Below are positions 34,178 through 63,841 of a stretch of 64,000 nucleotides of DNA, in pieces. The stretch is taken from the NCBI GenBank assembly GCA_000403215.2, contig KE159538.1, forward strand, positions 1 to 64,000, written 5' to 3'. Each line of letters starts with the position of its first letter. Position 1 is the first letter of the stretch. The position numbers and the translations under genes were made by a program. The DNA comes from Lachnospiraceae bacterium A4. GTDB lineage: Bacteria > Bacillota > Clostridia > Lachnospirales > Lachnospiraceae. A model generated the notes under the pieces. That model was not told the origin of the DNA, did not search any database, and saw only the letters and a list, made by a program, of their open reading frames with translations.

Positions 34178-34183
34178 TCTTCA

Positions 34184-34528
34184 TGGAGTAGACGGGAGTC
34201 GAACCCGTGTCCAAAAAACCATCCCATGTACTTCTACAGGTTTAGCTGATTGTTTCGGGCAAAGCCCCATTCCCTTCTATACAGGCGAACCAACACCCCC
34301 ATATAGTTAGTAGCTTCATGATACGCCCACATATGCAAAGCTTAATATGTGTCGTTTCCTACATCATCGATGCCTGAGTCCTAATGTGTAGGTGCACTAG
34401 GTCAGACAGCAGCCATTAGGCTGCGAATGCTAAATTATCTTCAGCGTTTAATTTTAATTGTGGATTTAACGCATACCTGCGGCCTGCTTCTCCATCTTCA
34501 AGTTCCCTGTCGAAACCTTTACTACCCC
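34184..34528 (-). ncRNA. ssrA: Transfer-messenger RNA (tmRNA)
   Basis: The 345-base minus-strand RNA starts GGGGTAGTAAAGGTTTCGACAGGG, cut here to the acceptor part GGGGTAG, which pairs with CTACTCC at the 3' end; the T-arm reads GGTTCGACTCCC and the discriminator base is A. The CCA end is not encoded. The tag reading frame ends LNAEDNLAFAA followed by TAA, typical of the proteolysis tags of Clostridia. The molecule rescues stalled ribosomes by acting first as tRNA-Ala and then as mRNA, with SmpB. The genomic strand also carries the pseudoknot-forming sequences that follow the tag. Its promoter and terminator are both recognisable. Confidence 0.97.
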
Positions 34529-42147: not shown

Positions 42148-42182
42148 AAAAAAATCCCTCACAGAAAAACTCTGCAAGGGAC
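42148..42182 (-). terminator. Regulated terminator of the pheST T-box
   Basis: On the minus strand the stem CCCTTGCAGA-GTTTT-TCTGTGAGGG is followed by ATTTTTTT. It competes with the T-box antiterminator. Confidence 0.9.
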
Positions 42183-42475
42183 GAATAAACCGCGGTACCA
42201 CCCAAATTCCTATATCAAACAGACAATACGCCTGTTTCCTGTGCCAGTTACACACAATTGCACCTGCACATTCTATAGACACTTCACAGACATAACGTGT
42301 CACTCCGTCTTTTCCTACCATTCTGCCCAGCCGTCAAGTCGGAAACAAAACTTCAAAAAAGCTGCTCCGGTGGGAAATTCGATATCTTAGTTGAACTGGG
42401 GAAGCTTTCAGCCGGTGACTTCCGATCTCTGGCAGAAACTAAGATTCTACTGAACACCTTCATTGCATTTACAAA
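42148..42475 (-). promoter_or_regulatory. T-box leader of pheST (specifier probably UUC)
   Basis: The minus-strand leader contains the T-box core GGGTGGTACCGCG (about 42190-42202) that binds the uncharged tRNA acceptor end, followed by the antiterminator and the terminator at 42148-42182. The upstream part folds as Stem I, with the AG-bulge region around AGAGATCGGAAG and the arms GAATCTTAGTT and AACTAAGATAT. The specifier loop next to the lower arm contains GAATTTC, with UUC, a phenylalanine codon. Uncharged tRNA-Phe should raise pheS-pheT-queA expression. The T-box identity is strong; the exact specifier position is inferred. Confidence 0.93.
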
Positions 42476-51372: not shown

Positions 51373-54003
51373 TCAATCCTTTGGCGTAATCTCAACAACA
51401 GTCGGAGTATATCTGTTGAATGCAAGAATTACTTTGAATAGATCACCATCTACGACAATCTCCATCTCTCCGTCGATCAGTTTCATCAGACTCTGTGCGA
51501 TGGAAAGCCCCAGACCATGTCCCTCCGTATTGCGCGATGCGTCCCCGCGCACAAAGCGCTCCATCAACTCCTCACCGCTGATATTCAAAGGGTACTTGGA
51601 AATGTTCCGAAACGTGATACTCACACGAGCTGACACAGCTTCCAGATTAACATAGACCCTCGAGCCTGTCTGTGCATACTTGCAGATATTGTTCATCAGA
51701 TTGTCAATAACACGCCACACATGCCGTCCATCTGCCATAATATATACTGGCTCATCGGGCTTGCTGATGATCAGCTCTAGTCCTGCCGCCGCAAGCTTCT
51801 CTTCAAACTCACCGACCGTCTGAGTCATAAACACACCGACCTCAAGCTGCTGGCTGTCAACTGCCAGATTGCCAGAAGATGCCTTGGAGGCTTCCACCAA
51901 ATCTTCAATCAGCTTTTTTAGTTTGGAGGACTGTCTGTCCAGCACTTCGAGATATTCAGCCGCCTTCTCATTGTGCAGTTCTTCTTTCGAGAGCAGATCG
52001 ACGTAGTTGATAATCGACGTGAGCGGCGTCTTGATATCATGCGACACGTTTGTGATCAGCTCCGTCTTGAGACGCTCACTTTTCATGCGCTCATCGACTG
52101 CCTTGGTCATTCCCTTGTTGATTTTATTCAGATTTTCGCCATGCTTTCTGCACTCCCAGAACATTTTCGCCGTGTTGACTTTGTACGACAGATTTCCCTC
52201 TGCCATATTCTGACTTGCCTTTTGCAGCTCATACAACTGGACGAACAGCAAACATAAAACCACGCAAAGCAGGATTTTGCCCAGAAACCAGAACAGCATA
52301 ACCGCACCCCGGTTAAACGCTAGTAAGATAAACAACTCCACAAAGGAGATTCCCCCAACGATAAACACAATCTTCCACAGCAGGCCGATATTGCAAAAAA
52401 TAAACCGAATCCCGTCACGGCACCAGCGATACACACGGTAGCAAATACTGTTCTGCCACCATTTGCCAGCTTTAAACCGTGTGCACAGGCTCAGCACATA
52501 CGCGAGTGCAGCCACTGCCATCACAACCACAAAAGCTCCGATCAGCCCTATACAGGCTTTGGCATAACGCGACATTCCTCCCTCTGCCACCACATAAATT
52601 CCCATAAAAAACAACACGGTTTCCACAATCAATACAGCGATACTAAACACATCAATCGGAATCCTGTCAATCATTGTGAGCACAATCCCGTCGGCTCCTC
52701 TGCGGTGTCCCGCCGCATAGACAAGAAATACAAATGACAGCAGCATCACGGCTAAGCTGATTCCAAGCCCCTGCAAAGGCCCCATCTCGAAGATGTCATA
52801 ATACGCCTCCACGAGCCAGCCCTTCTGATTGTACAGGCTTCCCTCCAGCTCTTTTGGAACAGCGTCTGGCACGATAGAGACTACCCAGTAGCTCTCTGTC
52901 GGAGCCTTTTTTTCAACGACCAGCGTAAAATCCTCGTTGAGATAGTATCCCTCTTTATTGATAAACAGATTTTTAGATAAACTGTCCGAGTCTATCGGGG
53001 TAAGTTCATTCCCTTGGATACTCCTGATATTGTCGAGAAGGATTTTTCCCCAATTCCTGTAATTGAACTCGGTGTTATTCAATGCTGCCAGATTGACAAT
53101 GCTTCCAATATCCATACTTCTGCCAAGAAGTTCTTCAATAGGATCTGTCTTGATGCGCTGCGCTTCCGGCTTATCCGTATGCTCTGATGAAGCTGCTTGT
53201 GTTTTTCCCAATGCCTCTTCTGGTTCCAGTGCCTCTTCTGATTCTAGTATCTCTTCTGGCTCCAGTGCCTCTTCTGGTTGTTCAGAAGAAAATTCATCCG
53301 CCCGCACAATGCCATCTCCTTGCGTCTTATCATTCAGACGGTATGCCTTTTTCTCATAATCATACTGATAATTGTAAGTCGTTTTGCCCTCTGCGCCATC
53401 ATAACACAAGGATACATTCTGCACTGGATAATAATCGCCCTCCGCGCGGTAATAAATGATGCCTTTGACAGTATCAAAACAGATTCGGTCCGCATACAAA
53501 TATGCCCATGTAGAATATTGGCTGTCCAGCTCTCTGCCATCCAACACCGCAATATCATCATACTGACCATAATACCCCATCGTCAAATTACGCCGAAACC
53601 CATTATAATCCCTAAGCACCCGACAAATATACAACTGGTCTGGATCCAACTCCTCAAGCTCACTGTCTGTCAGATTCGTTTCCAGATACGAAGCCTTATC
53701 ATGAAAATTGATGTCCTTGAGACTGTCTGACTTGATAATCCCACACTTAAAATACTGGCTGCTTAGATACTCTCTATAATTATTGATGTCAAAATCAAGA
53801 TGGTTGATTACATCAATCGAATAGTCTACGTTGACACTCTCATAAGCATCTTTTAACATCTCCGAACGTGTGCTGTTGATCATCGAGCTATCCATGATCC
53901 CTACCAGGACACAGATTCCCATCACAGCACATCCCATCGCTGCAATGATACATATTACCCATGCAGCAGATTTTGCGAGCATGGACTCTCTTAACTTTTT
54001 CAC
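51373..54003 (-). CDS. Large membrane histidine kinase (HisKA/HATPase)
   Basis: The 876-residue kinase has an N-terminal membrane anchor (about 12-38), a large extracytoplasmic domain (about 40-410), several membrane segments (about 415-590), then a HAMP-like linker and a HisKA domain with NVSHDIKTPLTSI (H near residue 665), and an ATPase domain ending with RNTEGHGLGLSIAQSLM. The extracytoplasmic part includes a Glu/Pro-rich repeat (see 53212-53279). It is a TCS kinase cognate to the OmpR regulator encoded just upstream at 54126-54818. The GTG start at 54003 follows AAAGGGTGA. A long perfect hairpin lies between the two genes. Confidence 0.88.
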   Translation of the reverse strand: MKKLRESMLAKSAAWVICIIAAMGCAVMGICVLVGIMDSSMINSTRSEMLKDAYESVNVDYSIDVINHLDFDINNYREYLSSQYFKCGIIKSDSLKDINFHDKASYLETNLTDSELEELDPDQLYICRVLRDYNGFRRNLTMGYYGQYDDIAVLDGRELDSQYSTWAYLYADRICFDTVKGIIYYRAEGDYYPVQNVSLCYDGAEGKTTYNYQYDYEKKAYRLNDKTQGDGIVRADEFSSEQPEEALEPEEILESEEALEPEEALGKTQAASSEHTDKPEAQRIKTDPIEELLGRSMDIGSIVNLAALNNTEFNYRNWGKILLDNIRSIQGNELTPIDSDSLSKNLFINKEGYYLNEDFTLVVEKKAPTESYWVVSIVPDAVPKELEGSLYNQKGWLVEAYYDIFEMGPLQGLGISLAVMLLSFVFLVYAAGHRRGADGIVLTMIDRIPIDVFSIAVLIVETVLFFMGIYVVAEGGMSRYAKACIGLIGAFVVVMAVAALAYVLSLCTRFKAGKWWQNSICYRVYRWCRDGIRFIFCNIGLLWKIVFIVGGISFVELFILLAFNRGAVMLFWFLGKILLCVVLCLLFVQLYELQKASQNMAEGNLSYKVNTAKMFWECRKHGENLNKINKGMTKAVDERMKSERLKTELITNVSHDIKTPLTSIINYVDLLSKEELHNEKAAEYLEVLDRQSSKLKKLIEDLVEASKASSGNLAVDSQQLEVGVFMTQTVGEFEEKLAAAGLELIISKPDEPVYIMADGRHVWRVIDNLMNNICKYAQTGSRVYVNLEAVSARVSITFRNISKYPLNISGEELMERFVRGDASRNTEGHGLGLSIAQSLMKLIDGEMEIVVDGDLFKVILAFNRYTPTVVEITPKD
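53212..53279. repeat. 18-base tandem repeat inside the kinase gene
   Basis: About 3.8 copies of an 18-base unit encode the hexapeptide pattern EEALEP / EEILES / EEALEP / EEALGK in the extracytoplasmic part of the kinase. Copies differ by a few bases. The tract lengthens or shortens in steps of six residues without breaking the frame. Confidence 0.8.
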
Positions 54004-54125: not shown

Positions 54126-54818
54126 CTATTTTTCCAGCTTATATCCACGTCCCCAGACAGATTTCAGATATCTAGGCTCTGCCGGATTGTACTCAAGCTT
54201 CTCCCGCAAATGCCTGATATGAACTGCCACAGTGTTCTCTGTACCATATGGACTGTCATTCCATACAGCCGCATAAATCTGTGCCGGTGAGTAGACTTTT
54301 CCCGGGTTTTCCATAAGAAGCTTGAGGATATCATACTCTGTCGGTGTCAGCGCCGCTTTTTCCCCGTCCAGCGTCACCTCCTTGGTGCGGTCGTCAAGCT
54401 CGATGCCGCCGATCGTCAGCGTCTCACTTGCTTTTGTCATCATACCGCTCCCAAGCTGCATATAGCGCCGAAGCTGAGATTTCACCCGCGCCTGAAGCTC
54501 TACTGGGTTAAACGGCTTTGTCACATAGTCATCTGCGCCGATATTGAGCCCCAGCACCTTATCCGTGTCCTCGCTCTTTGCTGTCAGCATGATGACAGGC
54601 ACATTACTCTGCTCTCGAAGCTTTACCATCGCGGTGATGCCATCCATCACAGGCATCATGATATCCATGAGCACCAGATGGATTTCCTCTCTCGAAAGTA
54701 TCTCCAAAGCCTCCTTTCCATTGTAGGCTTCGTACACTTGATATCCCTCGGTCGTCAAATAGATACGCAAAGCCGACACAATATCCTTCTCATCATCACA
54801 CACCAGTACGTTGTACAT
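54126..54818 (-). CDS. OmpR-family response regulator
   Basis: The 230-residue regulator has a receiver (about 1-120) with CDDE near residue 8, phosphoacceptor D52 in VLMDIMMP, and the KPF lysine segment, followed by a winged-helix Trans_reg_C domain (about 130-230) ending GYKLEK. It should control genes with the kinase at 51373-54003, which follows in the same direction. The start follows GGGGAGAG. A promoter is seen at 54884-54912. Confidence 0.93.
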   Translation of the reverse strand: MYNVLVCDDEKDIVSALRIYLTTEGYQVYEAYNGKEALEILSREEIHLVLMDIMMPVMDGITAMVKLREQSNVPVIMLTAKSEDTDKVLGLNIGADDYVTKPFNPVELQARVKSQLRRYMQLGSGMMTKASETLTIGGIELDDRTKEVTLDGEKAALTPTEYDILKLLMENPGKVYSPAQIYAAVWNDSPYGTENTVAVHIRHLREKLEYNPAEPRYLKSVWGRGYKLEK

Positions 54819-54883
54819 GTTCTCTCTCCCCGGTTCGTTTTTTCATTCAGCAGGAAAAATCGCGCTCCTCCCTGCATGTAAAA

Positions 54884-54912
54884 AGTATAGCTGATATATC
54901 ATTAAGTTCCAA
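54884..54912 (-). promoter_or_regulatory. Promoter of the OmpR/kinase operon
   Basis: On the minus strand TTGGAA (54907-54912) and TATACT (54884-54889) are separated by 17 bases, about 65 bases upstream of the regulator start. Confidence 0.7.
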
Positions 54913-55001
54913 TTGGGTAAATGTTTAAGATTTCATTAAGACGATAGCATTTGACGCTGTCCTGCTCCTCAGAAAAGCAGACAGCTATTTTTTAACATAA
55001 A

Positions 55002-56486
55002 TTATTTTCGCTGGGTCGGGTGGCACCGTTCGCACAGCGCCAACATTCCCTCGTCCTCATCAGAATCGCCAGCCGCCGCAGTATCCTTAGGCGAAATCCC
55101 CAGCCAACTGCATAATTTCTCTACACCGCCTCTTTTGTCCGCCTCCCAAGAAACAATCTGAAGGCAGTTTTTTTCTATAAAATATCGTATCTTTGTTTTG
55201 TCAAGCGTCAGGCAGTTCATGACAGTCTCCGCTTGCTGTCTGTCCCATGGTCTGTGCTTCGGGCGTAATAAAGTAATTTTATACAGTGTATCCCGATGGC
55301 GGTAAGCCAGCACCCGAAAAGCAAACTTTTTCTCCAAAACTGACAGTGCTGTCACCCATGTATCTTCCAATTCATAAAAATATTCTCTAACATCAAGCCC
55401 CTCCTCTAACACTAGATGGGCTCCGCCTGCAAAAATACCACCCGCAAACAGATGACGGATTTTGCGGCAGCGCTTGACCGCCTTTTCATACGGCAGCGTC
55501 GTGGCAAAAAATAAAGGGATCGCCTCCCTTGCAAGCGCGTTTAATCCCGCCATTACGCCATCAGAAACCGCATCGCTCTCTGCCTCTGGCAGCAGGGTTC
55601 CCTCAATGTCCAAAAATACCGCTTTCGGACGACGCGGAATGCGAAACAGCGGATACGGGCCAAACAGGATTTGATTCATAAAATCCGTTCTTCCGCCATA
55701 TGCGAGGTAACATGAGCACTGTGTTCTGCTACATTCTGGAGGTGGAAAATTTTCGATTGACTCAAAGCTTGTATGTTGTCTCATAACCGAACTGATATTG
55801 CATGTGTGAAGCTTTCCATCTGCCTCCACAAAAAGCCGCCCCTGACACATTGCTGCATTGGCTGAAAGCAACATCAGTTCCCGCTCAAAATATGGATCAA
55901 TCTCCATAAGCACTTCTAGCTCGTCCTGCGTGTATGCCCGCCGCAAGCCGTCCATTTTATTCACCCAGAGATATATTCCGTCCAGCCCGCGCTTGAGCTG
56001 CCGCAGTAAATCCAAGTTTTCCGGCACGCCAACACTGCCTGCACAGAGCTGAATGCCTTTTTCACGAAGCCGCTTGCACTTGGCAGCAAAATCTGACACG
56101 GTTGTCATTTCAGGGTGAAATGTAGCCCATAGACGCAGTTTCGCAGGCACTCCGCCTGCGCCGACATAGCAGTTCATAAAATCAGTGACCGAAAAACTCA
56201 GGTTTGTCTGTATCCCAACTGCATCGAGCTGTGCGAGTGTACTAAGCTGTGCCAGTCCTTCCCAGTACCACCGATGAATCATCGCCTCGCCATAGGGCAC
56301 GACCATCAATGCTCCGATTTGCATTCTCTCCGCCTTCTCCTGAAAACTTCTGATAAAAGAAAACCACTGCTCTCTGTCTTTTTCAAGCGCCCTCGCCGAC
56401 ATAGGATGCTTGGAAAAGGGACAGTATGAACAGTGGTAATTGCAGCTTTTAAGGCTTCCGCGATACAGTATCATGTGTCTGTCCAT
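55002..56486 (-). CDS. STM4011-type radical SAM protein fused to a HAD phosphatase domain
   Basis: The 494-residue protein begins with a radical SAM domain whose cluster motif is C15-x3-C19-x2-C22 (SCNYHCSYC); further cysteines lie in CSRTQCSC at about 252-259, possibly a second cluster site. This matches the STM4011 family known from the Salmonella STM4010-4015 region. From about residue 287 a HAD-superfamily (Cof-like) domain follows: FLDIEGTLLP, with D293 and E295 where the family usually has DxD, and GDSDEDEG near the C terminus. The fusion is unusual. Start at 56486 after GGGAGGT; the gene overlaps the end of the STM4012-type gene by 38 bases. Substrate unknown. Confidence 0.82.
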   Translation of the reverse strand: MDRHMILYRGSLKSCNYHCSYCPFSKHPMSARALEKDREQWFSFIRSFQEKAERMQIGALMVVPYGEAMIHRWYWEGLAQLSTLAQLDAVGIQTNLSFSVTDFMNCYVGAGGVPAKLRLWATFHPEMTTVSDFAAKCKRLREKGIQLCAGSVGVPENLDLLRQLKRGLDGIYLWVNKMDGLRRAYTQDELEVLMEIDPYFERELMLLSANAAMCQGRLFVEADGKLHTCNISSVMRQHTSFESIENFPPPECSRTQCSCYLAYGGRTDFMNQILFGPYPLFRIPRRPKAVFLDIEGTLLPEAESDAVSDGVMAGLNALAREAIPLFFATTLPYEKAVKRCRKIRHLFAGGIFAGGAHLVLEEGLDVREYFYELEDTWVTALSVLEKKFAFRVLAYRHRDTLYKITLLRPKHRPWDRQQAETVMNCLTLDKTKIRYFIEKNCLQIVSWEADKRGGVEKLCSWLGISPKDTAAAGDSDEDEGMLALCERCHPTQRK

Positions 56487-57768
56487 GTATGACCTCCCAT
56501 TCATGCATTGCTTGATCTACTGCTGGAGAAATAAGCTGCGGTCCAAGATAGTCAGAGACACCCAGCCCAGCCTCCGTCAGTGAAAGAAATCCGTTCTCCT
56601 CCAACACCGCGTATCCCTGCTCAATCCACGCACGCAGCAAGGAGAATGCATCGAGCACATCTTCGCCAAAAAGCTCCTGATACCGCTCCAGCTCCAGTCC
56701 GGGGCGAATCAGTAAATGTCGAATGACATAGCGCCTTTTGATCTCCTCCTCGGACAAGATTATTCCGTGGGTAATTTCCATAAAATCTGCTGTATTCTCA
56801 TAGTCTTTCAGCCGCGCCAGACAGTCACTTCTAGTGATGGCATACGGACTGCAAAAATGCAGTTTCCCCAGATAACTTCTCCCACCGCAGCCCAGTCCAA
56901 TAGAAGTGCCAAAACCACATTCCGAGAAAGCGCGTGCGGTTGTCTGCCGCACAAAACGACGCATGGAATCCTGACGGTATCCATTGCCGCGCAGGAAACT
57001 GCTCGCCGCCTGATACTGCGCAAAGGCAGTCTCCGGTTCCAAAACAACCCCTTCACGCTCCATGCGCGCACCGTGCTTCACATACAGCGGATACAAAAAT
57101 ATTTCCTCCGGCTCAAACTGTAAGGCTTCTTTTAACGACTCCAGCAGACTTGCGGCTGTCTGCCCCGGAATCCCATAGATAAAGTCTACATTGACACAGG
57201 GAAAATCATAAGTTTTTATCAGCGCGAATGCCTGCCGCGCTTTTTCTGCATTATGCTGCCTGCCCAATACAGACAGCTCTTTGTCTGAAAAACTCTGGAT
57301 TCCCATGCTGATTCTCGATACGCCCGCCTGCTTTAACAATTCCAGTTTTTCTCTAGTTGTCTGATTCGGCGCTGTCTCCACCACCAAACTGCGGTTTTCG
57401 CTGAACCGAAAATAGCATGTTACTATATGAAACATACGCTCAAGCTGCTGCACCGTCAAATACAAGGGCGTCCCTCCGCCGATGACCAGCTCGGAAAACT
57501 CCGTTCCAACAGACGTTAAAATCTCCTGATACTGGCTGCTCTGGCGTTCAACCGCCGTCAGATACCGATCCGCCGCCTCCTGTCCCAGCCCTGTCACAGA
57601 GAACAGATTACAGTAACCGCATTTTGACTGGCAAAATGGTATATGAAGGTACAATCCATGCCCTTTGCCTGCGAGTACCGATGCATAATCCCTCAAATAA
57701 ACACCCTTCAACGGTCGATATGCTGTTTTATGCGGATAGCTATACATATATTGAATATACAGCTTCAT
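56449..57768 (-). CDS. STM4012-type HemN-like radical SAM protein
   Basis: The 439-residue protein has the HemN/HemW layout: C46-x3-C50-x2-C53 (CQSKCGYCNLF) in the TIM-barrel start, IGGGTPLYLT, GIQSFSDKELSVLGRQHN, NVDFIYGIPGQT, and a C-terminal HemN-like winged part. The family is named for coproporphyrinogen III oxidase but its STM4012 branch is not shown to act in heme synthesis; here no other heme gene is near. It begins after GGAAGGG, 72 bases after the STM4013-type gene, and its 3' end overlaps the STM4011-type gene. It belongs to the five-gene STM island. Confidence 0.85.
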   Translation of the reverse strand: MKLYIQYMYSYPHKTAYRPLKGVYLRDYASVLAGKGHGLYLHIPFCQSKCGYCNLFSVTGLGQEAADRYLTAVERQSSQYQEILTSVGTEFSELVIGGGTPLYLTVQQLERMFHIVTCYFRFSENRSLVVETAPNQTTREKLELLKQAGVSRISMGIQSFSDKELSVLGRQHNAEKARQAFALIKTYDFPCVNVDFIYGIPGQTAASLLESLKEALQFEPEEIFLYPLYVKHGARMEREGVVLEPETAFAQYQAASSFLRGNGYRQDSMRRFVRQTTARAFSECGFGTSIGLGCGGRSYLGKLHFCSPYAITRSDCLARLKDYENTADFMEITHGIILSEEEIKRRYVIRHLLIRPGLELERYQELFGEDVLDAFSLLRAWIEQGYAVLEENGFLSLTEAGLGVSDYLGPQLISPAVDQAMHEWEVIHGQTHDTVSRKP

Positions 57769-57840
57769 AAATGCTGCCCTTCCTGATTTTATCTTTTCAT
57801 GTACGAACTACTGCTCACACCCTGTTGCTTCGTCATCGCA

Positions 57841-58722
57841 TCAAATAAAGAAATGCTTATAGGGAATGGTATTGACAACTGGATGGTTGACACCGTGAAA
57901 CTGGCAGCCATCCTCTCCATAACAAGTGCCATGATCCGAACAGCAAATCACAAATGTACTGCCCCGCAACTTTTTCCACTCTGTAAACAATCTTCCCAGC
58001 TCTCCATCGACATAGCGAAGCGCCGCCGCATGACTCTGAACACTGTCCCCAAGAGCACCCTCGAGATAAAAATAGTTCGGATAATGGATTGCATCCACAT
58101 TCAGATACAGAAAAATATGCTGGTCTGGATCTGCCTTCGATACTTTTTTCAAAATAAAATCCACTTGGTTTTTCGTGCTGTCCTTCACTGGGCAGCTAAA
58201 GGAAGGGTTCCAATAACTTTTTTGAAAATAAGATGGAAAGACTTTGCCTAAGTCCGAACGCTTATCAAAAAAAGCCACGCCGCCCACACACCACGTATCA
58301 TAGCCTTCTTTTTCAAGCCCTTCCATAATCGTGCTTCCTGAGAAGGCGTATGCACCCTCCGGCGTTTTGTTTCCAAGCCCTATTGCTTTCGGGAAAAATA
58401 GAAGCTCTCTGTCCGCCACGCTTTTTGCATCATACTGACAAGGCAGAAATCCCGCAAACATCGCATGATGTGATGGATATGTAAAATTTCCCGGCGCCTG
58501 ACATTTCTGCCACGAACCATACTGGTTCAGCACAGGTGTGCCGCCTGATGCTTCCTCCTGCACTGCCACATCGTAGCGCAGTGTATCCAGACATACGAAC
58601 AAAATATCCGAAGTTCCAACCACCTGAGCCATATCCACAGACGGTTTCCGATCCTCTCTCGAAGGCGCAAACAAACGAACAGGCACCTCCTGTTCCGTTG
58701 ATCTGACTGTATCTTCACTCAT
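57841..58722 (-). CDS. STM4013/SEN3800-type sulfatase-like hydrolase
   Basis: This 293-residue protein belongs to the alkaline phosphatase superfamily: VCLDTLRYDV holds a metal-binding aspartate, FTYPSHHAMFAG the nucleophile position (Thr or Ser), and CCSDHGTCYGEDG the later metal ligands, with HGVNHP near the end. It should hydrolyse a phosphate or sulfate ester, or transfer such a group. The family name comes from Salmonella STM4013. I start at the ATG at 58722 (GGAG nine bases before); upstream ATG codons at 58743 and 58737 are in frame. It lies 39 bases after the STM4014-type gene. Confidence 0.8.
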   Translation of the reverse strand: MSEDTVRSTEQEVPVRLFAPSREDRKPSVDMAQVVGTSDILFVCLDTLRYDVAVQEEASGGTPVLNQYGSWQKCQAPGNFTYPSHHAMFAGFLPCQYDAKSVADRELLFFPKAIGLGNKTPEGAYAFSGSTIMEGLEKEGYDTWCVGGVAFFDKRSDLGKVFPSYFQKSYWNPSFSCPVKDSTKNQVDFILKKVSKADPDQHIFLYLNVDAIHYPNYFYLEGALGDSVQSHAAALRYVDGELGRLFTEWKKLRGSTFVICCSDHGTCYGEDGCQFHGVNHPVVNTIPYKHFFI

Positions 58723-58761
58723 TTTTATTTTCTCCATTATCATGATCAATTCTTTTCATAT

Positions 58762-59826
58762 TTATAGTGCTTCTTTCAATGCTTCCATTTGCAGCCAATT
58801 TTTGATCATACGCGCCTGATGACTGTAAATTACATTTTCATGATAAATATCTTGATAAATTAAATCTCCCTGCGCATTCATTTCTATAATTCTAGGCCGC
58901 ATATGCCCTTTTTCCAGCAGAATATCAATCCCTGCACTTCTAAGTCCCGGATACGCTTTCACGCAATCCCGGCACAATATCGCAATGTCCTCCAGCAACT
59001 GCTCTGACAGCCCCAGCGCCGTAATCTCCAACGGGTGATTGTTCAGATGAAGGTTTGTGATCGGACCTCCCTTTGAAAGTCTCGCCAGCAGAAAATCTAC
59101 TTTGCCCTCCTGCACGACTGCCCGCAGATCATAAGAACAGCCCTGATGCACCGCTTTGGGATACCATCGCTCTATGATACAATCCAGCGCCAGAATCTGA
59201 CGCAGCAGTGGCAGAATATCCTTGGCTTTCGAAAAGCGGCGCAGACACTTGGTATTGATAAGCCCCGCATCTGCATCCAGCAGCGCACAGGTATAGAGTG
59301 CCATCTGCCCTGTACGCGCATTCCACCGCAGCGCGGATACACCTGCTGCTCCTGAACCCATTACTGGCTTGATAAACACCTGATGCACCCGCTGTCTGCG
59401 CATCTCCTCCAACAGCATCTCCACCGTCAGTTTTCCATCGTTCGAGCAATCCGACAGCCGTATCGTTTCCGTCACAGGCAGCCCCGCCTGCTGTAATCTC
59501 TCTTTGCAAGCCCGCTTGTCCAGCAGTCCCGCAATCACAGAAGGCTCATTTAGAAATGTCACAGCCCGACATTTCGCCAGTCTGCTCAACTGTTCAAGCT
59601 CGTGCATGTAGCCATCTGCCAACTGGTTGAGCTTCGCTAGAGAACAACTGGTCCAGCGCGGCGGGTCGATTTTTACCAGCAGCTCTTCTGCGTCAGGCAG
59701 GTCGTGATACGTCTCCCAGTCCTGCCAATCCACAAGCGTTACAGACACCCCTTCCTGTGCTGCTGCCTTTTCCAGATAGATCGTCCTCTTGGTGTCAGAG
59801 CTGCCTAATATCACTGCCTGTCTCAT
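58762..59826 (-). CDS. STM4014-type ATP-grasp protein
   Basis: The 354-residue protein has an N-terminal alpha/beta part (about 1-95) and an ATP-grasp domain: VFIKPVMGSGAAGVSALRW (about 166-184) with the ATP-contacting lysine and glycine loop, YDLRAVVQEG, and RIIEMNAQGDLIYQD with the Glu and Asn magnesium ligands. Such enzymes join a carboxylate to an amine or thiol with ATP. The start overlaps the stop of the STM4015-type gene in ATGA, showing translational coupling. Part of the five-gene island; substrate unknown. Confidence 0.82.
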   Translation of the reverse strand: MRQAVILGSSDTKRTIYLEKAAAQEGVSVTLVDWQDWETYHDLPDAEELLVKIDPPRWTSCSLAKLNQLADGYMHELEQLSRLAKCRAVTFLNEPSVIAGLLDKRACKERLQQAGLPVTETIRLSDCSNDGKLTVEMLLEEMRRQRVHQVFIKPVMGSGAAGVSALRWNARTGQMALYTCALLDADAGLINTKCLRRFSKAKDILPLLRQILALDCIIERWYPKAVHQGCSYDLRAVVQEGKVDFLLARLSKGGPITNLHLNNHPLEITALGLSEQLLEDIAILCRDCVKAYPGLRSAGIDILLEKGHMRPRIIEMNAQGDLIYQDIYHENVIYSHQARMIKNWLQMEALKEAL

Positions 59827-60710
59827 TCTGTCAACAGCGCATTCATATAAATCCTGCCACCATGCGCCCATGACTGTTCGATCTCAGACGCATCGACTTC
59901 GATTGGAAGCGCTTCTAATTTTTTTGCCATGTTCACTGACAGATAGTTGTGATGTATGTCCAGTTTCCTGATATTTGGATATTGAGGGATTTTTTCCAAA
60001 AGCAGCGCACCGCCCTTGTCTGTCAACGTACCGTTTGACAAGTCCAGCGTCGTAATCTGCTCCATAAATTTGCTGTCCAGCACCACCTCTGTCAGTTCAT
60101 CCTGTATCTCGCTGTCCGTAATGCCAAGCTCGGTCAGCTCCGGGAACTGCGCATGTGCCAAAAGTTCTTTGATCGTATTCTCGTTTCCGTCAAACCCATA
60201 ATTTTCTACACCGATAAAAAGCAGCAGCTTTTTCAGCTTCGGAAGCTTTGCATTTTGTATTGACTGAATGACACTTACAGGAAGCCCGCCGCAGATAATT
60301 GTCAACGCCTCAAGTTCCTCATGACAGATCTCCCCTAACACTAACTCATTGCTTCCCTTGATGGTCAGCTCCCTAAGCTGCGGCATCGCCGCCCACAGCT
60401 TGCTGTAATTTCCCTGCAAAATCCATGATACCTCGCAGGCCTCATAATCCATATTTCCAATGAATACTTTCTGAATATGCGAAAACTTCTCCTTATTTTC
60501 TATGATGCCGTCAATAATCGGCTGACAACTGCCATCCCATGCGCCCCAATTGCCAATGACCAGCTCGTCCAGCTTGGGAAACGCATCATGTGCCAGAATC
60601 TCCTCAATCATGGTTGCCGGCCCCTTGTCATCCTCATACTCTTCGTAATCATAGTAATATGTCTGTTTGGATACATTGATATTGTCCTCTTCCACCAATT
60701 CAAACTGCAC
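59823..60710 (-). CDS. STM4015-type leucine-rich-repeat protein
   Basis: The 295-residue protein is built of leucine-rich repeats: WAAMPQLRELTIKGSNELVL, KLPKLKKLLLFIGVENYG, FPELTELGITDSEIQ and YPNIRKLDIHHNYLS are successive units. It has no signal peptide, so it should act inside the cell, perhaps as a binding scaffold for the enzymes. I place the start at the GTG at 60710, eight bases after AAGGAGG, because the ATG at 60755 lies at the predicted transcription start and has no ribosome site. It heads the operon, and its stop overlaps the ATP-grasp start. Confidence 0.8.
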   Translation of the reverse strand: MQFELVEEDNINVSKQTYYYDYEEYEDDKGPATMIEEILAHDAFPKLDELVIGNWGAWDGSCQPIIDGIIENKEKFSHIQKVFIGNMDYEACEVSWILQGNYSKLWAAMPQLRELTIKGSNELVLGEICHEELEALTIICGGLPVSVIQSIQNAKLPKLKKLLLFIGVENYGFDGNENTIKELLAHAQFPELTELGITDSEIQDELTEVVLDSKFMEQITTLDLSNGTLTDKGGALLLEKIPQYPNIRKLDIHHNYLSVNMAKKLEALPIEVDASEIEQSWAHGGRIYMNALLTE

Positions 60711-60761
60711 TTGTACGCCCTCCTTTTGTATAAACATTCGTTTCGTTTTTAACATAACTCT

Positions 60762-60790
60762 ATCATACTACGTTGATGGAAAATGCGCAA
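60762..60790 (-). promoter_or_regulatory. Promoter of the STM4015-4011 operon
   Basis: On the minus strand TTGCGC (60785-60790) and TATGAT (60762-60767) are separated by 17 bases. Transcription would start near 60755, leaving a leader of about 45 bases before the GTG at 60710. Confidence 0.65.
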
Positions 60791-60873
60791 CTGAAAAGTT
60801 CATATTGACTTTAAATCACTGCTTCCACAATGGGGCTTTTATTTTCTTTTGCCTTCCTGCATATTGCCCATGT

Positions 60874-60908
60874 AAAAGTTTTCGCACTTGCAAATTCTCT
60901 GCAAGCGC
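60874..60908 (-). terminator. Terminator after the Fic genes
   Basis: On the minus strand a 9-base stem (GCGCTTGCA with TGCAAGTGC, loop of 7) is followed by GAAAACTTTT. It separates the Fic genes from the STM operon promoter. Confidence 0.55.
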
Positions 60909-60989
60909 ACGAAGTGCTGTTGTCTTTCCATATTGACGCTCTCTGTTGATCACAAAGTATTAAAATAACGTAACATTTTCTGTCTCCCT

Positions 60990-61652
60990 TCAATGATGAA
61001 ACATCATTCCGTCAATGCAATGATCATATAAAAATTGTTTTAAATCAGATTGATCTCCCGTCTCATAGTATGATGCTAACAACTTGTAAAAATCTTTTAT
61101 ATCTTTTTGCGCGACAGATATGATTCCCTGCCCGTTCTCAATCATTAGTTTATTTCCTATCAGCATCGCAATTCTTTTATTTCCATCGTAAAATAACTGT
61201 GCTCTCATCAAATATAATGTCAGATCTAACGCTTTACTAATGGGAACAGTTTTGCTTTCTAAAATATTCCCTAGTTCACTTTCCGCCTTTTTTTCATCGG
61301 GCAATTCAGGTATCCAGTCCGTACCGCCTATTCTCACTTCATCCCGCCGAAAAGTTCCCGCATTGATGATCGTATATCTTCCTAGTATCATATGTACTTT
61401 CTTTACAAATGCCAAATTAAGTTCTTCACTTATGTTATCGAGCAGAAATTGCCATGCATGCTTTAAGTCATTGATTGCATTAATATCCTCGATTGTATAT
61501 CCAGATACTGCCATTCCATTGTAAATTGCCTGTGTGTCTGGATACGTTACACCGATTCCCTCAAGATTCGCACTCTTCCATATATAATCTACGATATTGC
61601 GTTTTGCCAGAAAAATATTCTCCTTTTGTGTCATATTATATTTTGATTCCAT
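60990..61652 (-). CDS. Fic-fold protein with Gln in place of the catalytic His (downstream copy)
   Basis: The 220-residue protein has the Fic helical core. The active-site loop that normally reads HPFxxGNGR is AQLFYDGNKR, with Q152 in place of the catalytic histidine; the NKR ending is like that of Doc kinases. An inhibitory-type motif (Ser/Thr)xxxE(Gly/Asn) is at S27-A-N-L-E31-G32. Fic enzymes transfer AMP or phosphate to target proteins; without the His such transfer is doubtful, unless another residue serves. The start at 61652 follows GAGGGG. It lies 24 bases after its paralogue at 61677-62306. Confidence 0.8.
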   Translation of the reverse strand: MESKYNMTQKENIFLAKRNIVDYIWKSANLEGIGVTYPDTQAIYNGMAVSGYTIEDINAINDLKHAWQFLLDNISEELNLAFVKKVHMILGRYTIINAGTFRRDEVRIGGTDWIPELPDEKKAESELGNILESKTVPISKALDLTLYLMRAQLFYDGNKRIAMLIGNKLMIENGQGIISVAQKDIKDFYKLLASYYETGDQSDLKQFLYDHCIDGMMFHH

Positions 61653-61676
61653 TTTTCCCCTCAATACTCCTCTCGA

Positions 61677-62306
61677 CTAGAGCTGTAGTGTTTTAATACA
61701 CTTTTTCAGACAGTCTTTCAAAGGCTGCACTTCATCCTTTAAGTACCAATGATTTAACGTTCTGTTAAATTCCTCTGCATAATCTTTTCCAATTGTTAAA
61801 ATGCCTTCTCCGTTTTCGATCAGAATCTTACTGGCAACCATTGTCGAAGTCCGTTTGTTTCCATCCCAAAATAACTGCTGCTTACAAGCATATGCAAAAT
61901 ACTCAAGTGCCCGTTCCGCAGGCGTATTGATGGCGTTGATATGGTCAATTTTTTTCATAACCTCCTCTTTCACTGGAATCGTCGGTATAAAGTCCCCTAC
62001 GCCGACTGTTCCTTTTCTCAATACACCCCACTCCAAGCTTTCGTTTCTTGATACATATTCGTTCACCTTGCAAATATACGCAAGTGTCAATGGTGCATCT
62101 ACAGAATTGATAATAAATTTCCATCCATCTCTAAGATTTAAAACGGTCTGTATATCATCCACAGATACACCATTAATCACAGCGCCATCTATTATTGTCT
62201 GTGTCTGCGGAAAAGTTACATTGCACCCTTCTATATACGCAGTGTTAAATACCAGTTCTGTAAATATCTTCTTTGCCAAAAAAATATTTTGCTGTCTTGT
62301 AAGCAT
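61677..62306 (-). CDS. Fic-fold protein with Gln in place of the catalytic His (upstream copy)
   Basis: The 209-residue protein is a paralogue of the next gene, clearly diverged. Its loop reads QQLFWDGNKR, with Q144 at the catalytic position, and its N-terminal inhibitory-type motif is T22-A-Y-I-E26-G27. The shared change in both copies suggests a subfamily trait, not random decay. It might act as a pseudoenzyme or use a different chemistry. The start at 62306 follows GGAGGT and a promoter is at 62359-62386. No toxin partner gene or immunity gene of the short antitoxin type is seen next to it. Confidence 0.8.
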   Translation of the reverse strand: MLTRQQNIFLAKKIFTELVFNTAYIEGCNVTFPQTQTIIDGAVINGVSVDDIQTVLNLRDGWKFIINSVDAPLTLAYICKVNEYVSRNESLEWGVLRKGTVGVGDFIPTIPVKEEVMKKIDHINAINTPAERALEYFAYACKQQLFWDGNKRTSTMVASKILIENGEGILTIGKDYAEEFNRTLNHWYLKDEVQPLKDCLKKCIKTLQL

Positions 62307-62358
62307 TGATATACCTCCGATCATTGACGATATCTTATATCTATGTATTTTTAATTCT

Positions 62359-62617: not shown

Positions 62618-63841
62618 TCATAGCTTTGTTTTATCCAAATACCCTATAAGCTTCTGATAAAATCTCCTCTCCTGATCCTTAAAATCCTGCAACGCTGTGC
62701 TGTATTTCGGCTGGCTGGAATCTTTCAGATGAGATAGTGCGGTCTTTGCAAATTCCAGCACACTCTCAACAGTATCTCCGCAGATTCTTGTGCTCTCACC
62801 ACTCATCAGCGCCGACAGATACTGCTTTAGATACTCGGACGGATAAAGCAATGCTCCCTCCTCATCAATTCCCAATCCATCTGTTCCTGCTTCCTCTGCG
62901 GCTTTTTCCCATGCCTGTCTCACAGACTCCGGCAACTGATTCAAAAATTCTGAACGAATCGTTTGATAATCCATTGCTGCTTTCAACGCTTCTGCATCTT
63001 TGCTGCCATTGAGATAGCTTTCCCAAAAGGACTGGTCACTCATATAAAAAGCAAATTCAGAACCTAAGTTACGTGCCTTTTCAAGCATCTCGTGCGAAGC
63101 CTTCATACTCCAGCCTGCGCTCTTGTTCAGATGATTCACATATGTAATCTCACCCTTGCTGTCAAACTGCATTTGCGCATAGCCGCCGTCCAAATCCTGC
63201 ACATAAATTGCATTGTCCACTGGAATCAGTGTATTGGCGTCCACGCGCAGCATTTCCACCTCCTTTGGCATCCCATACGTTTCAAGCAGATGCACCAGTT
63301 TATTCCCATCTGCCACCTGACCGTAAAGTTTCGACGCCATACATGTCTCTTTTTCTTCCTCGACCATAGCAAGCCAATCGCGTTTTTGTCCAAAGCCTTC
63401 TTCCTGACCGGAAGCTGCTTCTGACAGCGCATCATGAACATATGTATTGAGCATGTCCCAACTGCTTTTTGCACCTTCTGTTTTCTTTTCGTGTGCATCA
63501 GCATAACTGCATAGTGCAAACATCTCAAAATCTGACGCAGCGTTGACATCAATTTCATCAATATTAATAATAAACTCCTGCTTTCTTTGGTCTGCGCCCT
63601 CCGCTGTCACCTTCATATAGGGTGTATCTGCCGAAAAATTTTCATCATACGCTGCTGTCAGACGATAGCTGGCGCCTGTTTTTGTATCCCTGTATGAACT
63701 GTTTGCCAGCACGCGCCCGTCCCCTGCTGAATTGCCCAGTTCCATGCTGTACGTCCGGTTTGCCAGTCTGAAATCCTTGTTGTTCTTTACATAGGCTTTG
63801 TACTCCTGATAACTGAATGTGACATTGTTTACTCCTGACAT
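62618..63841 (-). CDS. Uncharacterised 407-residue protein
   Basis: I do not recognise a family. The protein is acidic, soluble and has no signal peptide or membrane segment. The N-terminal part (about 1-110) is beta-rich with TYSMELGNSAGDGRVLANSS; the middle and C-terminal parts are mostly helical with many charged residues. Its stop is followed by a possible 40-residue frame. Its start ATG directly follows the TAA of the upstream gene, with no base between, so the two are translationally coupled. Function unknown. Confidence 0.7.
   Translation of the reverse strand: MSGVNNVTFSYQEYKAYVKNNKDFRLANRTYSMELGNSAGDGRVLANSSYRDTKTGASYRLTAAYDENFSADTPYMKVTAEGADQRKQEFIINIDEIDVNAASDFEMFALCSYADAHEKKTEGAKSSWDMLNTYVHDALSEAASGQEEGFGQKRDWLAMVEEEKETCMASKLYGQVADGNKLVHLLETYGMPKEVEMLRVDANTLIPVDNAIYVQDLDGGYAQMQFDSKGEITYVNHLNKSAGWSMKASHEMLEKARNLGSEFAFYMSDQSFWESYLNGSKDAEALKAAMDYQTIRSEFLNQLPESVRQAWEKAAEEAGTDGLGIDEEGALLYPSEYLKQYLSALMSGESTRICGDTVESVLEFAKTALSHLKDSSQPKYSTALQDFKDQERRFYQKLIGYLDKTKL

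Follow-up and report, generated by a model that had tools for sequence, protein, structure and literature searches.

A 64,000-nucleotide stretch of the Lachnospiraceae bacterium A4 genome (assembly GCA_000403215.2, contig KE159538.1, positions 1 to 64,000; the whole stretch is hereafter the window) carries a five-gene operon of the STM4011 to STM4015 families, whose leucine-rich repeat (LRR) protein, STM4015, was found to end in glutamate in every copy read. The next gene encodes STM4014, an ATP-grasp enzyme that, judged by sequence, appears nearest to the glutamate ligases. These families are already named in public databases without a function, and what is new is the terminal glutamate in every copy read together with the glutamate-ligase-like partner. 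Because of these two features, a carrier or tail-modification mechanism is the best-supported reading of the set. In the pathway proposed here, to which we give about an even chance, STM4014 would load the terminal glutamate of STM4015, and two radical S-adenosylmethionine (SAM) enzymes and phosphatase-like domains would act on the attached unit.

The operon occupies positions 55002-60755 of the minus strand, where five open reading frames (ORFs) share one direction in the order STM4015-4014-4013-4012-4011. The five products all exceed the curated NCBIfam cut-offs, and the features are as follows.

59823..60755, minus strand: STM4015-family LRR protein of 310 amino acids (aa), proposed carrier or substrate (NF038076, 314.5 bits, cut-off 275)
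59826..59852, minus strand: C-terminal tail of STM4015, its last nine residues, with the terminal Glu of every copy read
58762..59826, minus strand: ATP-grasp protein of the STM4014 family, 354 aa if it starts at the ATGA overlap or 369 aa from 59871 (NF038074, 338 bits, cut-off 175)
57841..58749, minus strand: STM4013/SEN3800 alkaline-phosphatase-superfamily hydrolase, listed with a TTG start, the start being uncertain (NF038075, 395 bits, cut-off 250; Pfam Sulfatase, 42.7 bits)
56449..57768, minus strand: STM4012-family HemN/HemW-like radical SAM protein (NF006067, 527.3 bits, cut-off 380)
55002..56504, minus strand: radical SAM protein of the STM4011 family, fused at its C-terminus to a HAD-type domain, alternative start at 56486 (NF038073, 296.8 bits, cut-off 200)
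55026..55628, minus strand: the HAD-type, phosphatase-like part of the fused STM4011 protein, roughly residues 293-493 (PF08282 over its cut-off at residues 437-492; PRK01158 at 294-490 and Cof at 409-491 below theirs)

A preliminary description made from the letters of this DNA had proposed a five-gene, one-direction island with these outer limits, which the ORF list confirms, and its family names are all correct by the NCBIfam cut-offs. Its interpretation is partly supported. The HAD domain fused to STM4011 had been missed, and the biosynthetic or modification pathway that it suggested is an inference that we share. The ATGA overlap that it reported is real, the STM4015 stop codon at 59823-59825 overlapping the ATG at 59826. 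This ATG is a better start for STM4014 than the listed 59871, and in the longer form the match to the family profile sets in at residue 20. With a STM4011 start at 56486, the overlap with STM4012 has the reported 38 bases; it becomes 56 bases from the ATG at 56504. Gaps of 12 and 72 bases occur inside the operon. Promoter-like sites in 54700-61100 numbered 8, against 8.4 expected in shuffled sequences, and the promoter scan listed none on the minus strand of 60755-61100.

The evidence that carries the proposal comes from the end of STM4015. Glutamate is the last residue in all 106 frames read, comprising 98 of 98 that score over 100 bits, the window included, and a further eight of eight from actinomycete and Deinococcus loci, some of which are copies away from an operon. 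Reduction of the 105 complete frames to distinct ones left 101, all with the terminal Glu, as did the 25 representatives under 60% identity (25/25); left out of this set were L007, which is the window's own copy and was entered as the window, and L048, a 138-bit frame that also ends in Glu. None of the other operon proteins has a fixed last residue, the commonest one accounting for smaller shares (Leu in 47/85 STM4013 and 25/85 STM4012; 10/87 for STM4014 and 11/79 for STM4011). Position -2 of STM4015 is T, S, G or A in 101/101, and each of the 101 has Y, W, F or H at -6 or -8 (at -6 in 55 and at -8 in 82 of 101). Residues -30 to -10 are acidic (35% D/E). Mean column entropy is 0.99 bits over the last five residues, 2.00 over residues 281-300 and 1.54 over residues 60-280. 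Since both glutamate codons are used (GAA 72, GAG 29) and 54 of 100 contexts are not of the ATGA or GTGA type, the terminal Glu is not a by-product of the overlap with STM4014. Two to three tandem STM4015 copies were found in seven loci (L014, L070, L072, L076, L085, L099 and L105), with identical last four residues and bodies of 53-99% identity. The negative control for the tail, two weak LRR matches, was too small to use: the unrelated LRR protein of L008 happens to have Glu as its last residue too, and the frame of L009 extends past the edge of its locus.

Structure prediction relied on alignments that retained 57 of 64 selected rows for STM4015 and 55 of 64 for STM4014, the window included in each. 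The AlphaFold2 model of STM4015 adopts an LRR fold with a mean predicted local distance difference test (pLDDT) score of 91.6, residues 1-25 being low. Its best solved match, PDB 2RA8 (B. fragilis Q64V53, 39% identity), is an orthologue labelled as an uncharacterized protein that has about 68 extra N-terminal residues; the other solved matches are also LRR proteins. The 2RA8 chain has 362 residues, 351 of them in the structure library, and the alignment of its first 354 with the B. finegoldii protein runs to the end of the latter, through ...YPMITE. The eight residues that follow this Glu are probably a tag.

Profile searches place the partner enzyme among ATP-grasp ligases. When 55 STM4014 members were scanned singly at E<=0.001, glutamate ligases came up most often: 44 matched the MptN model, 26 RimK, 9 CofF and 5 LysX. 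Residues such as K168, D316 and N332, which we take to be ATP-grasp-like residues, are kept in 86-87 of 87 proteins. The STM4014 model has a mean pLDDT of 91.0, and ranks 1 and 2 of its solved fold matches are ArgX with LysW; RimK, RimK:RpsF and LysX are also in the top 50.

Amino-group carrier proteins offer the closest parallel. According to PMC10433800, LysX joins 2-aminoadipate (AAA) to the C-terminal Glu54 of LysW, the amine of the substrate being joined to the LysW C-terminal Glu by LysX and ArgX alike; an E54A mutant of ArgW loses its function and is an arginine auxotroph; and the GSWGR motif of LysX and ArgX recognises the EDWGE tail of the carrier (PMC10433800). The likeness consists in a protein with a terminal Glu paired with an ATP-grasp ligase, and the ArgX:LysW complex is the top solved fold match of STM4014. 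The differences are equally plain. LysW has zinc-binding cysteines, a small zinc-binding fold and the EDWGE end, whereas STM4015 has an LRR fold and EDWGE ends none of the STM4015 tails read; GSWGR is absent from STM4014, and the operon partners here are radical SAM and phosphatase-like enzymes. A second parallel is RimK, which adds glutamates to the C-terminus of RpsF, the ribosomal protein S6 (PMC10092738). Both are ATP-grasp ligases acting, or in our case proposed to act, on the C-terminus of a folded protein, but the window STM4014 scores 20.7 bits against a RimK cut-off of 143.4. Third, in the pearlins (PEARL carrier peptides such as TglA and TmoA), an amino-acid unit is built on the carrier C-terminus and then cut off, and one of these pathways uses radical SAM chemistry (PMC9303977). 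Pearlins are loaded by a tRNA-dependent PEARL ligase, while the operon here has an ATP-grasp enzyme and an LRR carrier, and none of its five proteins matched a PEARL ligase in NCBIfam or Pfam at E 0.01.

By analogy with these systems, STM4015 would be an LRR platform whose C-terminal tail presents the terminal Glu, and STM4014 may work like LysX. With ATP, it would activate the gamma- or alpha-carboxylate of this Glu and join it to an amine, most simply that of an amino acid, as LysX and ArgX do on LysW and RimK on S6. STM4011 and STM4012 would then alter the tethered unit, or the tail plus the unit, STM4013 and the HAD domain would remove phosphate groups, and the finished unit would be released. 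We infer that the Glu is the attachment point, and likewise the nature of the attached unit, what the other enzymes do and in which order, and the release step. More tentatively, at somewhat below even confidence, STM4015 could represent a new class of carrier, an LRR platform that must end in Glu; an ATP-grasp enzyme would load an amine on this residue, and two radical SAM enzymes together with phosphatase-like enzymes would convert it to a widely distributed small molecule.

Several observations weigh against this proposal. The main weakness is the high pLDDT of the STM4015 tail (mean 95 for residues 291-300 and 91 for 301-310); therefore, the tail may lie against the LRR domain and not form a free arm. 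Its conservation shows that the tail matters and does not tell what is done to it. Among the five operon proteins we saw no peptidase that could account for release. As for STM4014, the window protein falls far below the MptN and RimK cut-offs, and 7 of the 55 members matched the D-Ala-D-Ala ligase (Ddl) model. Sequence searches gave no clear solved relative: the single protein reached a best E of 0.087, and the profile search of solved structures 0.0078 with a pyruvate carboxylase domain, followed by RimK at 0.012. In the fold search, PsnB, a graspetide ligase ranked third, and the Ddl enzymes nearly equal ArgX, with identities of 12-19%; since the E-values are close and the identities this low, the fold alone picks no type of ATP-grasp ligase. 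Finally, the LysX motif GSWGR occurs in 0 of 87 STM4014 proteins, so STM4014 is not itself a LysX.

An alternative that we regard as unlikely is that the operon makes a ribosomally synthesized and post-translationally modified peptide (RiPP). The STM4015 tail would be the core and the LRR domain an unusually large leader; STM4011 and STM4012 would modify the tail, STM4014 would make an intramolecular bond or cap the Glu, and the tail would be cut off as the product. The tandem STM4015 copies of seven loci, with their shared last four residues, fit this scheme, as do the third rank of the graspetide ligase PsnB and the C-x9-G-x4-C motif and further conserved cysteines of STM4011, a pattern characteristic of SPASM/twitch enzymes that modify peptides. 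On the other hand, the aromatic residue shifts between -6 and -8, leaving no fixed cross-link pair besides the Glu, and a peptidase is missing here too. A Tyr-Glu cross-link like that of pyrroloquinoline quinone (PQQ) was set aside on the same ground, as the position of the aromatic residue moves.

Rather doubtful, in our view, is a tail that serves as a structural cap or docking peptide, with the enzymes using a free small molecule and STM4015 being their assembly scaffold. The predicted confidence of the tail agrees with this, and so do the residue counts of 2RA8, from which the tail may well be ordered; yet a fixed last residue behind a variable linker is not obviously what a cap would need. 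A regulatory modification, in which STM4015 is an effector whose C-terminus STM4014 extends or caps as RimK does on S6, the other enzymes making or removing the group and no product being released, appears improbable: RimK and RimK:RpsF are among the top 50 folds and extra STM4015 copies lie off-operon in Streptomyces cadmiisoli and Embleya, but two radical SAM enzymes and two phosphatase-like domains would exceed the needs of capping, and the distribution is sporadic (7/299 genomes).

The remaining enzymes are strongly conserved at their putative active sites. In STM4011, C21, C25, C28, C220, C235, C263 and C265 are present in 79/79 distinct frames and C258 in 78/79, giving a CxxxCxxC motif followed by C-x9-G-x4-C and C-x4-C-x-C. 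The extra cysteines look like an auxiliary cluster of the SPASM/twitch type, and many enzymes of that type have peptides as substrates. Sequence search found no solved relative of STM4011. Its C-terminal part is a HAD-type domain by PF08282 (38 bits, cut-off 20.9), the NCBIfam HAD models remaining below cut-off. The locus for which the NCBIfam families STM4011 to STM4015 are named, that of Salmonella, has the same five families in the same order, with the HAD gene separate there and fused to STM4011 in the window. Because the Salmonella plasmid locus L010 shows this order followed by a separate Cof-type HAD gene, the HAD is likely a sixth part of the set. Among the 79 distinct STM4011 frames, window included, 53 match HAD, 54 are long and 25 short, the short forms including those of Salmonella, Paenibacillus, Streptomyces, Nonomuraea, Embleya, Deinococcus, Methylobacterium and some Lachnospiraceae and other Clostridia. 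The nucleophile pattern DxDGT or DxEGT was found in 38 of the 53 fused frames.

STM4012 retains C46, C50 and C53 in 85/85, and the window protein is below the cut-offs of HemW (169.1 against 205.4) and HemN (160.3 against 324.95). STM4013 retains D55, T90, H222, D248, D272, H273, H285 and H289 in 85/85, and a sequence search for solved relatives of it gave weak matches (best E 0.0079). The Thr, kept in 85/85, is presumably at the nucleophile position. This Thr and the invariant Asp and His residues make phosphatase or phosphodiesterase chemistry likelier than sulfatase chemistry. A sulfatase with its maturase was accordingly set aside as a candidate, formylglycine sulfatases using Cys or Ser at that position.

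The flanks of the operon were searched for a precursor. In 159 flanks of up to 800 bases, with ORFs of 18-120 codons, none of the 12 largest groups, those that were listed, was a conserved small ORF common to different lineages, the widest groups covering 5 loci that are all Paenibacillus. This result supports STM4015 as the precursor or carrier. The preliminary description had seen no obvious small precursor gene, which the search bears out for small ORFs; the likely precursor or carrier is nevertheless inside the operon, as STM4015 itself.

Genes for MATE-family exporters lie within about 320 bp of the operon in loci L003, L011, L021, L022, L062, L082, L087 and L092 (Bacillota and Bacteroides). 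Among flanks with room, a MATE gene was counted within 300 bp in 6/152, at 0.3-1 kb in 0/148 and at 1-3 kb in 2/138; these counts exclude L003 (312 bp, short locus) and L011 (score rule), and the MATE search was confined to the loci. MATE proteins possibly export the pathway product, a suggestive but thin association. A DUF6745 gene and a gene for a protein of about 100 residues stand beside the operon in six other loci (L012, L014, L015, L099, L104 and L105, from Methylobacterium, Streptomyces, Deinococcus and Nonomuraea), and the six DUF6745 proteins have in common a short C-terminal pattern, Y-x-P-x-x-x-[TA]. The clustering of neighbour genes also returned many shadow frames of operon genes.

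In a set of 299 genomes from the taxonomic family of the window, 7 were over the cut-off for each of the five models, and these were the same seven genomes (G000, G029, G111, G172, G194, G195 and G264). At E<=0.001, matches occurred in 9 genomes for STM4015, 24 for STM4014, 31 for STM4013, 31 for STM4011 and 297 for STM4012, the last number presumably reflecting HemN and HemW relatives. None of 14 control genomes was above any of the five cut-offs. The contexts of STM4013 were then read in genome contigs from the best 80 of at least 587 relatives, a sample that leans to Lachnospiraceae. Where there was room upstream, STM4014 was near in 70/72 loci and STM4015 in 71/72; where there was room downstream, STM4012 and STM4011 were each near in 68/73. 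The misses were called by a mechanical distance rule (L047, L049, L071, L077, L078, L085 and L091). The STM4012 gene of L077 is present and was missed through a fault of this rule, L078 has STM4012 and STM4011 upstream, and assembly faults are possible in loci such as L047, L049 and L071.

The phyla in which the set occurs are, at a minimum, Bacillota, Bacteroidota, Pseudomonadota, Actinomycetota and Deinococcota. Records of Salmonella, Methylobacterium, Streptomyces, Deinococcus and Paenibacillus likewise show the full gene order, as do Nonomuraea and Embleya according to profile matches; the Bacteroides loci L084 and L087 are complete. Thus, a separate distribution of the five families, which the preliminary description had named as the finding that would speak against it, was not encountered in these genomes, and the order is kept in distant phyla, with exceptions. 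In a Bacteroides finegoldii plasmid copy, STM4013 is reduced to a weak remnant (82 bits) and STM4012 has no match. Three plasmids, one each from Rhizobium, Cupriavidus and Streptomyces, have an STM4012-family protein but none of the other four in the stretches viewed. Some STM4015 copies also lack neighbours from the set; the extra copies of Streptomyces cadmiisoli and Embleya are in the same record as the operon. On the Rhizobium and Cupriavidus plasmids (L013:8944-11261 and L018:8887-11222), the STM4012-family gene and a class I methyltransferase gene overlap, and the enzyme may serve another purpose there.

A single scan with the STM4015 of the window, limited in reach to close relatives, found no virus-borne copy. 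At megablast sensitivity, 80% of the Salmonella operon is present in 0 of 5,426 E. coli genomes; short matches occur in 94, and in all ten matches listed the match covers 3% of the query and falls in a HAD gene. A defence system was rejected as an explanation, PADLOC returning weak matches only (PDC-M51A at 2.8e-9 on STM4012 and pVip at 0.0086 on STM4011) and none for the other three proteins.

In the window, the operon has a tandem pair of Fic/DOC-family genes upstream (60990-61664 and 61677-62324, both minus strand), which both read QLFxDGNKR. The canonical Fic motif starts with His, and this catalytic residue seems to be missing in both. Just downstream of the operon are a histidine kinase gene (51373-54003, minus strand) and a gene for a response regulator with a C-terminal DNA-binding domain (54126-54818, minus strand). 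The window also holds, all on the minus strand, a transfer-messenger RNA (tmRNA) gene at 34181-34528, a T-box leader barely above the gathering score at 42174-42472, and a gene at 62618-63841 for a 407-residue protein with no Pfam match at E 0.001. The Lachnospiraceae-like character given in the preliminary description is supported by the three nearest STM4013 relatives (87-89%), which come from records titled as Lachnospiraceae metagenome-assembled genomes (MAGs).

A full-text search of open-licence papers did not find a function for STM4011 to STM4015 in print. Single locus names appear in one table each of PMC3844500 and PMC2784778, and the search gave no paper for the family names, SEN3800, DUF6745, or the combination of leucine-rich repeat, radical SAM, ATP-grasp and precursor. 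The fixed C-terminal Glu turns what had been an unknown pathway with no precursor into a testable question, whether a single residue of a single protein carries an adduct. If the proposal is true, a tRNA-free, LRR-based carrier system would join the amino-group carriers and the pearlins, and the operon would point to an undiscovered metabolite.

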